This document shows positions 22,407 to 28,054 of a DNA stretch of 64,000 bases, piece by piece. Position 1 is the stretch's first letter. Each line of letters starts with the position of its first letter. Source of the stretch: Corynebacterium comes (GTDB taxonomy: Bacteria; Actinomycetota; Actinomycetes; Mycobacteriales; Mycobacteriaceae); assembly GCF_009734405.1 (NCBI RefSeq), contig NZ_CP046453.1, positions 2,356,001 to 2,420,000 on the forward strand. Direction: 5' to 3'. The position numbers and the translations under genes are program-made. A model generated the notes under the pieces. That model saw nothing but the letters and a program-made list of their open reading frames with translations. It made no database searches and was not told where the DNA came from.

Positions 22407-22724
22407 GTGCCGCCGAAGGTCACTGACACCCGCCCGACTCCCGAGGCTCTTCATGCCGTGGAGGAGAAGACCGCCGCCGCCGCCCGCCGTATCGTCGCCA
22501 CGTACTCGCAGGACTTCATGGACGGCGTGACCCTCATGTGCATGCTGGGCGTGGAACCGAACGGACTGGTCTACAAGAAGGTCGCCGCGGAGCTGGAGGA
22601 GACTGAGCCGTCACCGGCGAAACGCACCCGCAAGGCGACGAAGAAGACCACCACCGCCAAGAAGGCCCCCGCCAAGAAGGCGACGAAGAAGACCACCGCC
22701 AAGAAGACGGCAAAGAAGGTTTAA
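22407..22724 (+). CDS. Small protein with histone H1-like Lys/Ala/Thr tail
   Basis: 105 residues. Residues 1-60 form a small acidic/neutral domain (AAAARRIVATYSQDFMDGVT, MLGVEPNGLVYKK) with no family I can name. Residues 66-105 are a repetitive tail of KKTT, AKKAPAKKA and KKTAKK units, like bacterial histone H1-like proteins and the tails of mycobacterial HupB. GTG 22407 follows AGGAGGATCC. It lies 9 bases before otsA. Nucleic-acid binding or compaction is inferred from the tail only. Confidence 0.75.
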   Translation: MPPKVTDTRPTPEALHAVEEKTAAAARRIVATYSQDFMDGVTLMCMLGVEPNGLVYKKVAAELEETEPSPAKRTRKATKKTTTAKKAPAKKATKKTTAKKTAKKV

Positions 22725-22733
22725 GCGCCAGGT

Positions 22734-24149
22734 ATGAGCGGCGACAACAGATTCGTGGTCGTGGCCAACCGCCTGCCGGTTGACCTGCATACCGCACCCG
22801 ACGGCACACGCACGTGGTCCCCCAGCCCCGGAGGGCTGGTCGCCGCGCTCTCCCCCGTCCTGGAGAACCAGCAGGGCTGCTGGGTGGGATGGCCCGGTGT
22901 CTCGGACGAGGCGCCTGAGCCGTTCCGCACCGACGCCGGGGTACTCCTCCACCCCGTCCGCCTCACCGAGGCGGACTTCGAGGGTTTCTACGAGGGTTTC
23001 TCCAACGCATCACTGTGGCCGCTGTACCACGATCTCATTGTCACCCCGGTGTATCACCGGGAATGGTGGGCCGCCTACCGCGACGTGAACCTGCGTTTCG
23101 CGCAGGAGGTCGCGGAGGTCGCCGCCGAGGGGGCCACCGTCTGGGTGCAGGACTACCAGTTGCAGCTGGTCCCCGGGATTCTCCGGCAGCTGCGCCCGGA
23201 TCTGCGCATAGGTTTCTTCCTGCACATTCCTTTCCCCAGCCCGGATCTGTACCGTCAGCTGCCCTGGCGGGAGGAGATCATCCGTGGCCTCATGGGCGCG
23301 GATCTCATCGGTTTCCACCTGGAATCGAACGCCCGGAACTTCCTCGACCTGTGTGCGGTCACCGAGGGACTGACCGTGGAGGGCACCGCAGGCACCCGAC
23401 GTATTGACGCCCATGTGGTCACCCATGACGGCCACCGCGTGGCCGTCGGCGCGTTCCCGATCTCGATCGACCCGGGCTCGCTCGGGGAGGGGGAGGAAGG
23501 CGGCGTCGATAAGCTCCGTGCAGAGCTGGGGAACCCGGAGACGGTGATTCTCGGCGTCGACCGGCTCGATTACACCAAGGGCATCCTGCAGCGCCTGCTG
23601 GCGTTCGAGGAGCTGCTGGAGTCGGAGGCGCTCGACCCGGCGTCAACCGTCCTGATGCAGGTGGCCACCCCATCGCGCGAACGCATCGAGCAGTACCAGA
23701 TGGCGCGTTCCCAGGTGGAGGAGGCCGTCGGCCGGATCAACGGAACCTTCGGCGCCATGGGTCGGCCGGTGGTGCACTACCTGCACCAGTCACTGCCGAA
23801 GAACGAGCTGCGCACCTACTATGAGGCCGCCGACGTCATGCTGGTCACCCCGTTCAAGGACGGGATGAATCTGGTGGCGAAGGAGTACGTCGCCTGCCAC
23901 GGCGATGGTTCGGGGGCACTGGTGCTCTCCGAGTTCGCCGGTGCGGCCGTGGAACTGCGCGAGGCCAACCTGTGCAACCCCTTCGACCTGGAGTCCATCA
24001 AGCGCGCCATCCTTACGGCGGTGCAGGGGCTGTCGACGACCCCCGACGTGATGAAGGATCGAATGCTCGCCATGCACCGGCAGGTGGCGGAGTACGACGT
24101 CAACCGGTGGGCCGATGCCTTCCTCACGTCCCTGGAGGAGACCCGATGA
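22734..24149 (+). CDS. otsA: Trehalose-6-phosphate synthase
   Basis: GT20 glycosyltransferase joining UDP-glucose (or GDP-glucose) to glucose-6-phosphate, 471 residues. Diagnostic segments are VVVANRLPVDL, the glycine-rich SPGGLVAAL, VWVQDYQLQLVP, GFFLHIPFPSPDLYRQLPWR, GADLIGFHLESNARNFL, GVDRLDYTKGI, PSRERIEQYQ and TPFKDGMNLVAKEYVA. Trehalose is needed in this group for mycolate transfer and osmoprotection. The stop overlaps the next lipoprotein's ATG (ATGA), and the phosphatase gene follows. Confidence 0.97.
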   Translation: MSGDNRFVVVANRLPVDLHTAPDGTRTWSPSPGGLVAALSPVLENQQGCWVGWPGVSDEAPEPFRTDAGVLLHPVRLTEADFEGFYEGFSNASLWPLYHDLIVTPVYHREWWAAYRDVNLRFAQEVAEVAAEGATVWVQDYQLQLVPGILRQLRPDLRIGFFLHIPFPSPDLYRQLPWREEIIRGLMGADLIGFHLESNARNFLDLCAVTEGLTVEGTAGTRRIDAHVVTHDGHRVAVGAFPISIDPGSLGEGEEGGVDKLRAELGNPETVILGVDRLDYTKGILQRLLAFEELLESEALDPASTVLMQVATPSRERIEQYQMARSQVEEAVGRINGTFGAMGRPVVHYLHQSLPKNELRTYYEAADVMLVTPFKDGMNLVAKEYVACHGDGSGALVLSEFAGAAVELREANLCNPFDLESIKRAILTAVQGLSTTPDVMKDRMLAMHRQVAEYDVNRWADAFLTSLEETR

Positions 24150-24619
24150 GGCGCCCGTTGTCCATGGTCGGTGCCGGGCTGGCCGCCACGCTGCTGCTGG
24201 CCGGCTGCTCCTCTGCGCCCACGGCCGAGGTCGCGGGTTCAACGTGGCTGGTCACGGATATCTGGACCACCCCGGGTGAACCCTCTGCCCTTCCTGAAGA
24301 TACCGCCGGCCGCGCCCGGCTGGCCTTCGGCGAGCGCTCGGTGTCCGGGCATACCGGCTGCGCCCCGTTCCAGGGCACCGTCCGCTTCAGCCGCGAGGGT
24401 GAGGAAACCGACGTGGAGAGCGCCCACACTCTCACAGTCGATCGCCTCGAGGTCAGGGAAACCGAGGAGAACTGCAGCGCAGCCTGGTCCCACGGGCAAC
24501 TGACGGGGCTCATCGAGCCCGGTGCGGTATTCGACGTCCGCCATGATGACCGTTCCCTGGTGCTGACCCTGCGTACCGACGCCGTCGACCGGCCTGCCAT
24601 CGGACTCTCCGCCATCTAG
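24146..24619 (+). CDS. META-like lipoprotein between otsA and otsB
   Basis: A 157-residue exported lipoprotein. The signal peptide ends in LLLAGCSS, an ideal lipobox. The mature part opens with VAGSTWLVTDIW and has GHTGCAPFQGTVRF, resembling the GTDGCN core of META/HslJ domains, plus a second Cys in ENCSAAW. It overlaps otsA by 4 bases, so it is co-translated with it. Function unknown; a periplasmic stress role is the usual guess for META proteins. Confidence 0.78.
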   Translation: MRRPLSMVGAGLAATLLLAGCSSAPTAEVAGSTWLVTDIWTTPGEPSALPEDTAGRARLAFGERSVSGHTGCAPFQGTVRFSREGEETDVESAHTLTVDRLEVRETEENCSAAWSHGQLTGLIEPGAVFDVRHDDRSLVLTLRTDAVDRPAIGLSAI

Positions 24620-24628: not shown

Positions 24629-25948
24629 ATGAGTCTGCCCCCCGCCACGATCGCCCGCCTCGCCACAGCCGAGAAACTGCTCGTCGTCTCCGACTTCGAC
24701 GGCACTCTGGCCGGCTTCTCCCCCGACATCTATGCCGTGCCCGTCAACCTGGACTCGGTCGCCGCGCTCACCCGGCTCGCAGGCCTGCCGGACACCCACG
24801 TCGCCCTCCTGACGGGCCGCCACCTTGAGGGACTGGCCGAGGTCTGTCCGCTGGTCGCTCCGGTGGTGCTGGCGGGATCGCACGGTTCAGAGTCCGCGGA
24901 GCACGCGGTGGCGCTGACCGATTCGATGCTCGAGAAACTGAGCGCCGTGGAGGAACAGCTTGCCGAATTCGCCTCCCATCCGGTCGTGTACATCGAGTAC
25001 AAGCCCTTCCAGCGGGTCGCCCACGCTGCGGCTCTGGCCTCGACTGACCAGGCGGCGGCGGACTCGCTCCTCGACGCCGTCATGTCCATCGATATCCCCG
25101 GCGTCCGGGTGACGCGCGGCAAGAACATCGTCGAGTTCTCCGTCAGTGAGGCCACCAAGGGCACCTGGCTCGCCGCGGAGATCGAGCGGGTCCAGCCCAC
25201 CGTCGCGGTGTTCATCGGCGACGACGCCACCGACGAGGACGGCTTCCGCAGCCTGCGTGAGGGCGACGTCGGGGTCAAGGTCGGCGAAGGCGAGACCGCC
25301 GCCACGGAAAGGATCGCCGACATTCCGGCGGTGGCGGAGCTGCTCACCTCGCTTGCCGACGCCCGCGCAGCCCACCTCGGCCTACCCCGCACCGTCGCCG
25401 AACGTTTCGAGGCCATCTCCGCAGGTTTCTCCGCAGAGGTGCACCGCGTGCACGACTGGTCCGCCGCGACCCCGTGTGAGGGCTGGTCCGCCCGGGACAT
25501 CGTCAATCATCTGCTCACGTGGTATCCCGCCAACCTGCGCAATGCCGACGTCGACCTGACCTTCCCCGCCGACCTCCAGGCCGACCCCGCCGGCGCCTGG
25601 TTCGAGTTCGTCTCCGCGGTCCGTGCGCTGCTCGCTGACCCGTCGCTTGCCGACGCCCCCTTCACCTCCGGCCCCGACGAGGGCCAGACCGTGGCCCGGG
25701 CCACCGCCGGGTTCCTCCTGCCCGACATCTTCATGCACACCTGGGATCTCGCCCGCTCGCAGGGCCGGGACGTCACCCTCGACGCCGACTACGCCGCCCG
25801 CAACCTCGCGGGACTGGAGTCACTGGGTGATTCCCTCCGGGAGACCGGCCGGTTCGGCCCGGCGGCGCAGGTGTCCCCGGATGCCTCGGCCGGAGTCCGA
25901 CTCATGGCCTACGTGGGCCGGGATCCCGGGTTCGGTCTGGAGGCCTAG
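24629..25948 (+). CDS. otsB: Trehalose-6-phosphate phosphatase fused to a MDMPI/TIGR03086-like domain
   Basis: A 439-residue bifunctional-looking protein. Residues 1 to about 245 are a complete HAD trehalose phosphatase (VSDFDGTLAGFSPD, LLTGR, AGSHGSES, GDDATDEDGFRSLREGDVGV). Residues about 255-439 add a mycothiol-dependent-enzyme-like four-helix domain: SAATPCEGWSARDIVNHLLT near its start and FLLPDIFMHTWDLARSQG further on, both hallmarks of the TIGR03086/maleylpyruvate isomerase-like family. Classic OtsB is about 250 residues. The reading frame is continuous with no stop or start at the junction. Dephosphorylation of trehalose-6-P is well supported; the role of the second half is unknown. 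Confidence 0.88.
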   Translation: MSLPPATIARLATAEKLLVVSDFDGTLAGFSPDIYAVPVNLDSVAALTRLAGLPDTHVALLTGRHLEGLAEVCPLVAPVVLAGSHGSESAEHAVALTDSMLEKLSAVEEQLAEFASHPVVYIEYKPFQRVAHAAALASTDQAAADSLLDAVMSIDIPGVRVTRGKNIVEFSVSEATKGTWLAAEIERVQPTVAVFIGDDATDEDGFRSLREGDVGVKVGEGETAATERIADIPAVAELLTSLADARAAHLGLPRTVAERFEAISAGFSAEVHRVHDWSAATPCEGWSARDIVNHLLTWYPANLRNADVDLTFPADLQADPAGAWFEFVSAVRALLADPSLADAPFTSGPDEGQTVARATAGFLLPDIFMHTWDLARSQGRDVTLDADYAARNLAGLESLGDSLRETGRFGPAAQVSPDASAGVRLMAYVGRDPGFGLEA

Positions 25949-25958: not shown

Positions 25959-26312
25959 ATGAGCATCCGTGGTCTCGCTGTCAGCGCCCTCATGGTGTCC
26001 GCCCTGCTGCTTCCGGGCTGTTCCTCCGCAACGTCCCCCGTGGATGACTGGGGAGTCGATGAACCCGGGCAGCCGCAGCTGACCCTGAGCGAGGACGGCC
26101 GTCTCTCCGGCACCGATGGCTGCAACCGACTCATGGGGTCCTGGGAGGAAGCCGGTGACTCGATCCAGCTGTCCGGGATCGCGTCCACGCTGATGGCCTG
26201 CGAGGGTGTGGACACCTGGCTGTCCGGCGCCCAGAGCCTCAAGGTCGACGGAGACACCCTGCATGTCTTCGACGCCGGGGGACGCGAACTGGGAACCCTC
26301 AGGCGACATTAG
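25959..26312 (+). CDS. META domain lipoprotein
   Basis: A 117-residue lipoprotein. The signal peptide ends in LLLPGCSS. The mature protein is a single META/HslJ domain: SEDGRLSGTDGCNRLMGSWE and ASTLMACEG with the usual two cysteines. HslJ-type proteins are linked to heat and novobiocin stress in E. coli. It is preceded by a leaderless-type promoter and meets the HdeD gene tail to tail with a 4-base overlap. It is the second META-like lipoprotein beside otsB. Confidence 0.85.
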   Translation: MSIRGLAVSALMVSALLLPGCSSATSPVDDWGVDEPGQPQLTLSEDGRLSGTDGCNRLMGSWEEAGDSIQLSGIASTLMACEGVDTWLSGAQSLKVDGDTLHVFDAGGRELGTLRRH

Positions 26313-26911: not shown

Positions 26912-28054
26912 TTACCCGCGGAAGGTGGGGAGCACTGGCCCGACAAGGTCCGGTGACTCCCTCGGCGGCGCGACCGTGGTGCCCCGGTGGAACGTGGTCG
27001 CCAGGATCTCGCGGGGCGGCGGGCCGGGGGCCGGAAGATCCGCAATGTGGGCGTCGATGAGCGAGAGCAGCATCCGGCCGGCCGCCGCACCCTTTTCCTT
27101 GTTGGGCTGGATGACGGTGGTCAACCCCACCATGAGCGCGTTGCGGATGCCGTCGAATCCCGTCACCGACAGCTCCTCCGGAATGGAGATCGCCTGTTCC
27201 TGGGCATATTCCAGCACACCCAACGCCATCGAGTCGGTGGTGCACAGCACGGCCGTCAGGTCGGGATGGCCGGTGAGCATCTCACGGGCGGCGGACAGGC
27301 AGTTGGCGTGGTCGTTGATGTGCCTGGTGATCACCGGCACTTCCTCCCGCGCGATACCGGCGGCCGTGAACTCATCCAACGCCCCGAGCACGCGGTCGCG
27401 TTGCACGTGCAGGGCCGCATCGGGCAGGGTGTCCAGGTCGACGGGGCCGTCATGCCGCTCCCGTTCCAGCCGGATCGCCAGGATCCCGATGCGACGGTGA
27501 CCCGCATCAACCAGGGCGCGGGCTGCGGGGCGGATGGCGGAGCGGTCGTCGATGCCCACGAAAGGCAGGTCATCGATACCCGTCGGCTGATCACACACCA
27601 CCATGGGAAGCTGCCGGGCACGTGCCGCCGTGAGATGCGGATCGCCCTCCGCCACCGAGTACACCACCACCCCGTCAACAGCGACCCGCCCCACCAGCGC
27701 CGAGGCGTCAACCTCCGAGGGGCCCGCCGGGATGAGCGTCAACGCCGATTCCGCACCGGACGTCGACTCCGCCATGCCCGCGAGGAAATCCACCGAGGCG
27801 ACGTCCTCGAAGGCGTACGTCAGATGCTCCGTGAGCAGCACGCCGATCGATCCGACCCGGCGGGTACGCAGGGACCTCGCCATGGGGTCCGGGCCGGGGT
27901 AACCGCGGGCCTCAGCGGCAGCGAGGATCCTCTCCCGCAACTCCACCGACAGCTGATCCGGATGGTTGTACGCGTTCGACACCGTCGTCCGCGACACCCC
28001 CAGCTCGGCGGCGAGCGAGGCGAGAGTCCCGCGGCTGCGGGCACGTTTGACCAT
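26912..28054 (-). CDS. ipsA: LacI family regulator, IpsA-like
   Basis: A 380-residue repressor/activator. The N-terminal helix-turn-helix (TLASLAAELGVSRTTVSNAY) is followed by the hinge and a periplasmic-binding-protein-like effector domain (VDGVVVYSVAEGDPHL, FVGIDDRSAIRPAA, LCTTDSMALGVLEYA). In C. glutamicum the LacI gene right after otsB is ipsA, the inositol-responsive activator of inositol phosphate synthase; the assignment here rests on family and recalled position. TAGGTT lies 6 bases before the ATG (leaderless), facing the esterase promoter. Confidence 0.8.
   Translation of the reverse strand: MVKRARSRGTLASLAAELGVSRTTVSNAYNHPDQLSVELRERILAAAEARGYPGPDPMARSLRTRRVGSIGVLLTEHLTYAFEDVASVDFLAGMAESTSGAESALTLIPAGPSEVDASALVGRVAVDGVVVYSVAEGDPHLTAARARQLPMVVCDQPTGIDDLPFVGIDDRSAIRPAARALVDAGHRRIGILAIRLERERHDGPVDLDTLPDAALHVQRDRVLGALDEFTAAGIAREEVPVITRHINDHANCLSAAREMLTGHPDLTAVLCTTDSMALGVLEYAQEQAISIPEELSVTGFDGIRNALMVGLTTVIQPNKEKGAAAGRMLLSLIDAHIADLPAPGPPPREILATTFHRGTTVAPPRESPDLVGPVLPTFRG

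Follow-up and report, generated by a model that had tools for sequence, protein, structure and literature searches.

Trehalose delivers mycolic acids to the envelope of corynebacterial cells and also serves as a stress protectant; the main thiol of these bacteria is mycothiol. Trehalose-6-phosphate phosphatases of the OtsB type are HAD enzymes, recognised by the motifs DxDxT, S/T-G-R, K and GDDxTDE. For the TIGR03086 family, which belongs to the DinB/YfiT (S-transferase-like) superfamily, we know of no member with a tested function. In LmbV and EgtB, thiol transferases from this superfamily, a DinB domain is likewise combined with a second functional domain, and for two-domain members it has been suggested that the second domain sets the non-thiol substrate (PMC5815605). 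Work on Bacillus subtilis in that paper reports that very divergent superfamily members retain metal-dependent thiol-transferase activity. Trehalose-6-phosphate phosphatases with an extra domain are also on record, but in the fusions of trehalose-6-phosphate synthase and phosphatase (TPS-TPP) that PMC3634074 describes, the partner is the synthase. Here we analysed 64,000 nucleotides of Corynebacterium comes (NZ_CP046453.1, positions 2,356,001 to 2,420,000; the window), in which the otsB gene is joined in one frame to a TIGR03086 domain. The partner of the DinB-fold domain here is a sugar phosphatase, unlike in LmbV and EgtB. The fused gene is divided as follows.

24629..25948, + strand: whole fused gene, OtsB plus TIGR03086, 439 residues
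24629..25378, + strand: trehalose-6-phosphate phosphatase (HAD) half, residues 1-250, with HAD residues invariant in 49 fusions
25379..25393, + strand: short linker (residues 251-255) that connects helix 232-250 to helix 256-272
25394..25945, + strand: TIGR03086 (DinB/MDMPI-fold) half, residues 256-439, assigned by family model, structure model and fold comparison

Translation of the gene gave 439 residues with zero internal stops, in one unbroken frame that runs from the HAD phosphatase into the second domain, as the original prediction had described. The motifs it quoted (DFDGTLAGF, GDDATDEDGF, HTWDLARSQG) are present in the translation, and its naming of both halves was right: the curated models for trehalose-6-phosphate phosphatase (NCBIfam TIGR00685, 84.6 bits, cut-off 68.05) and for TIGR03086 (residues 275-431, 88.5 bits, cut-off 83) both scored above their cut-offs. 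The N half also matched Pfam Trehalose_PPase (PF02358) over residues 22-218 (E 1.3e-17) and showed a trehalose-6-phosphate phosphatase fold (compare 6upb, 6qj6, 5gvx, 5dx9). Conservation was read from 49 fusions, 25 OtsB proteins and 49 standalone TIGR03086 proteins, chosen from 71, 49 and 78 listed, respectively; three of the 25 rows classed as OtsB only (P0072-P0074) may be pieces of fusions. D22, D24, T26, G63, R64, E123, K125, H132, E169, K177, D198, D199 and D202 were invariant in 49/49 fusions, and residue 62 was T in the studied protein and S in most fusions. Family match, HAD motifs, fold and closeness to otsA are shared with known OtsB proteins, from which the fused protein differs by its C-terminal 184-residue domain from another superfamily. 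The N half very probably converts trehalose-6-phosphate to trehalose.

Both halves showed the base composition of coding DNA by codon position (G+C at third positions 0.88 and 0.87), and the ratio of nonsynonymous to synonymous substitution rates (dN/dS) over seven pairs was 0.20-0.32 in the OtsB half and 0.04-0.36 in the C half. Purifying selection acts on both halves. The predicted structure was a confident two-domain model, and L242, A243, R246 and P253 near the junction were invariant in 28 fusions. We also considered a separate second protein made from an internal start. From codon 200 to codon 330 the frame offers just three start-type codons, GTG at 235, 271 and 274, and a GAGG that could support a weak start stands 8 bases ahead of the last. 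Such a product is unlikely, because the second domain would lose almost its entire first helix (256-272) if translation began at 271 or 274. The protein is a genuine two-domain product: both families are complete in it, and their active-site residues are invariant.

A search of 242 Corynebacterium genomes found a match in 222 and, among the matches listed, 15 spanning both halves. In the 14 fused genomes with gene calls the fusion was a single open reading frame (ORF) of 401-440 codons, and the fifteenth (G231, a 3,129-base contig) held an open frame of 438 codons. Among the best 120 of 291 proteins in a database search, 71 (the query counted) covered at least 96% of the query, at identities down to 46%; named holders were C. 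hylobatis, C. humireducens, C. occultum, C. lemuris and C. pollutisoli. Both curated families matched in 28/28 fused relatives scanned (E 0.001). When whole genomes were scanned, the TIGR03086 part of the fusion scored above cut-off in six of the 15 fused genomes and below it in nine; across the 15 there was no second TIGR03086 match over cut-off, and all matches outside the fusion lay below it. Several of these sub-cut-off matches, in six fused genomes scanned with MDMPI_N, were MDMPI-type proteins. Five unfused genomes (G062, G244, G029, G087, G080) gave zero TIGR03086 matches.

Recurrence of the join in 15/242 genomes and in 71 of the best 120 proteins, with no other TIGR03086 match over cut-off, refutes an assembly or frameshift artefact, to which we give a negligible probability. 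No frameshift or stop was found near 25380, where the original prediction had placed the possible break, and the join was open in all 15 genomes. Proteins of this type, which it had suggested seeking among Corynebacterium OtsB proteins of more than 400 residues, do exist, and the fusion is not confined to this genome. Beyond the genus, no fusion was found among 397 genomes of the order (at most the best four candidates per genome, among the matches listed): the only full-span matches were G000 and G095, both Corynebacterium, and 24 order relatives examined gave zero full-span fusions. Within the genomes searched, the fusion is therefore limited to some lineages of Corynebacterium. A length of about 250 residues, assumed at the outset for OtsB proteins, does not hold as a general limit, given the TPS-TPP fusions described in PMC3634074 and the many OtsB matches of the order whose open frames, counted from stop to stop rather than as called genes, run to about 850-1000 codons. 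In group f15 of the order-level genomes the frames of many OtsB matches have about 880-1000 codons, so larger OtsB-containing proteins may be common there. In one genome a fragment matching OtsB residues 9-48 at 68% (G026:C1:2901689-2901808) lay about 1.8 kb upstream of a full otsB.

Both halves are known families, and databases already contain the combination: 5 of the best 120 database proteins were listed with the two Pfam domains together, and named entries of the fused architecture are called trehalose-phosphatase or similar. No paper on an OtsB-TIGR03086 architecture was found in the literature search, in which papers on Corynebacterium OtsB and on maleylpyruvate isomerase or trehalose fusions were represented by title and start of abstract. 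Two standalone proteins, P0131 and P0144, bear the JGI name 'trehalose 6-phosphate phosphatase' with only MDMPI_N listed, most likely an annotation error by transfer from fusions.

The C half carries a predicted metal site, located as follows.

25508..25510, + strand: H294, predicted metal ligand (2nsf H52), invariant; spacing compared with 2nsf by eye
25724..25747, + strand: D366-x3-H370-x2-D373, predicted metal ligands and salt-bridge Asp (2nsf E144, H148, D151), from invariance and the 2nsf literature
25916..25921, + strand: G430-R431, counterpart of 2nsf G221-R222 by our own numbering of 2nsf, invariant

Fold comparison returned maleylpyruvate isomerase (MDMPI) as the nearest solved structure. 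In C. glutamicum MDMPI (Cgl3021, 2nsf), whose metal-site and salt-bridge residues were taken from PMC4351081 and PMC8562490, the zinc ligands H52, E144 and H148 and the D151-R222 pair have the same spacing by eye. The two proteins differ in that identity is about 12%, Asp replaces Glu144 as one ligand, and the fused protein, scanned with Pfam at E 0.01, gave zero MDMPI_C (PF07398) matches. MDMPI_N matched residues 274-375 at 21.1 bits for the whole protein, against a cut-off of 24.2, and at 25.4 bits in the genome scan. H294, D366, H370, D373 and R431 were unchanged in 49/49 fusions and in all 49 chosen standalone TIGR03086 relatives; P0198, a distant standalone outside that set, has Glu at the D366 position. 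C283 was invariant in fusions and Val in 65% of standalones. The C half shares with its family an over-cut-off match, the H-D-H site and the GR motif, but its free-standing relatives have their own gene at another locus, whereas here the domain is joined behind OtsB at otsAB. Because the metal-site residues are complete and invariant, sequence and fold support a metal-dependent, plausibly mycothiol-dependent, activity, and we prefer to read the C half as an enzyme domain that depends on metal and probably uses mycothiol. To that extent the mycothiol- or metal-dependent activity of the original prediction is supported; coupling to trehalose production or to OtsB regulation stays a proposal.

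We favour, at a probability of roughly 55%, a two-domain protein that unites a trehalose-6-phosphate phosphatase with a metalloenzyme head of mycothiol-type chemistry. The N half would dephosphorylate trehalose-6-phosphate supplied by the neighbouring OtsA. In the C half, the H294-D366-H370 site would bind a divalent metal, probably zinc, which would activate a thiol, probably mycothiol, for use in an isomerase- or S-transferase-type reaction. The join would put a formerly separate gene at equal dosage and under the regulation of the otsAB operon, and the short conserved junction would keep the two heads in a fixed relation. The mycothiol gene mshC scored above cut-off in this genome, as it did in G062, G244, G029 and G080, the four genomes tested that lack the domain; mycothiol is therefore probably made, which bears on cofactor supply and nothing beyond it. 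A conserved join between the last trehalose step and a mycothiol-type metalloenzyme domain offers a concrete starting point for learning what TIGR03086 proteins do and whether redox state and trehalose are connected.

Alternatively, the C half may be a regulatory module that binds metal together with mycothiol or another thiol and alters OtsB activity by redox or metal state. The short junction with its four invariant residues, the confidently predicted two-domain arrangement and the complete predicted metal site would all fit such a role, and in the TPSP of T. tenax the TPS domain inhibits TPP activity, according to PMC3634074. Fusion-specific conservation on the OtsB half, however, amounted to 5 positions at the chosen cut-offs, the start Met among them, so no clear co-evolved interface is apparent; OtsB lacks the domain in most genomes of the genus, and a sensor would not obviously require an unchanged set of MDMPI residues. 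We regard this module as possible but unlikely. Slightly less likely again is that the fused domain, of the DinB fold and derived from an enzyme once encoded separately, gates OtsB in response to mycothiol and metal. To our knowledge, this would then be the first trehalose phosphatase with an output directly set by the thiol redox state of the cell. It is highly improbable that the HAD half also dephosphorylates GlcNAc-Ins-P, the pseudo-disaccharide phosphate of mycothiol synthesis (the MshA2 step), although this activity, if true, would explain the thiol-linked partner. As far as we know, the gene for this step is unproven. Papers on mycothiol name the MshA2 step, and one of them mentions a gene mshA2.

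The fusion could also be a harmless accident, with a C half that has no selected link to OtsB. Its patchy occurrence (15/242 genomes) and the sister lineages that lack the domain cleanly, with no recognisable remnant, would suit such hitch-hiking, as would possible redundancy of OtsAB: TreY was above cut-off in 15/15 fused genomes and TreS in 13/15, so OtsB need not be the sole source of trehalose, and a dependence of the fused genomes on OtsAB for trehalose is unsupported. TreY was also above cut-off in the near unfused genomes G062, G244 and G029 and in 0/6 other genomes tested, a comparison uncorrected for kinship. Low dN/dS in the C half, retention of the five site residues in every fusion sampled and a join that persists in proteins diverged to 46% identity speak against the accident; they indicate that both halves are used, while the link itself could still be neutral. 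We consider this reading improbable. A role as the cell's maleylpyruvate isomerase in gentisate breakdown has in its favour that MDMPI is the closest solved fold. The genome, however, encodes a separate true MDMPI (241 residues, 2nsf match E 4e-108, MDMPI_N and MDMPI_C above cut-off), and the fused protein lacks an MDMPI_C match, so the C half as a gentisate-pathway isomerase was rejected and is given a minimal chance. Next to the true MDMPI gene stand a gene for an FAA hydrolase and an ORF resembling cupins, whose cupin match is below cut-off.

The nearest free-standing relatives, from C. variabile, C. terpenotabidum, C. provencense and others, were 48-56% identical to the C half. At eight of the 11 free-standing loci read, a neighbouring gene belongs to one and the same cluster, represented by a YdjM-type membrane protein. 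None of the 11 stretches contained otsA or otsB, and no TIGR03086 gene linked to otsA or otsB elsewhere was found in 32 loci searched (two pairs being the same place). A separate otsB was present in the 14 genomes searched for it, of which 11 carry these free-standing genes and three show a weaker match to TIGR03086, and otsA adjoined it at 7/7 loci tested. In the OtsB tree, proteins from genomes with a free-standing gene branched outside the fusion-containing group, within which fused and unfused proteins interleaved. The fused label needed 3 changes, at least 2 of them by starred branches, and fusions formed one clade in 0% of 200 bootstrap trees, in agreement with an earlier OtsB tree. The C-half tree needed 2 changes, with a single fused clade in 2% of bootstrap trees. 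One fused clade was not rejected by the approximately unbiased (AU) test (p 0.134 for OtsB, 0.355 for the C half). A search for domain remnants behind otsB in 5 unfused genomes gave only chance-level matches (E 0.06-0.5). Since the AU test leaves one clade standing and a single gain with losses needs no clade, one origin is the simplest reading only: a free gene moved behind otsB, fused once and was later lost several times. Independent fusion events are possible. In Corynebacterium sp. SN15 (L062 and L145, the same place), the 3' end region of a free-standing TIGR03086 gene (about 6500-6590 in L062) matched in two different frames, which suggests a frameshift.

The genes around the fused otsB in the window are these.

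22734..24149, + strand: otsA, trehalose-6-phosphate synthase, upstream of the fused otsB (Pfam Glyco_transf_20, E 2.8e-136)
24179..24619, + strand: gene for a small META-like protein, located after otsA and before the fused otsB (META below cut-off)
25959-26312: downstream META-type small protein gene (strong META match)
26912..28054, - strand: LacI-type regulator, convergent, past the META and DUF308 genes

The gap from the META-like gene to otsB is 9 bases, and genes for META-type small proteins flank the fused otsB on both sides. A LacI-type relative was found at 17/19 otsB loci compared. Upstream of otsA, 22407-22724 encodes a 105-residue protein with a lysine/alanine-rich tail and zero Pfam matches, which resembles, by eye, an ORF cluster present at 11/34 loci compared.
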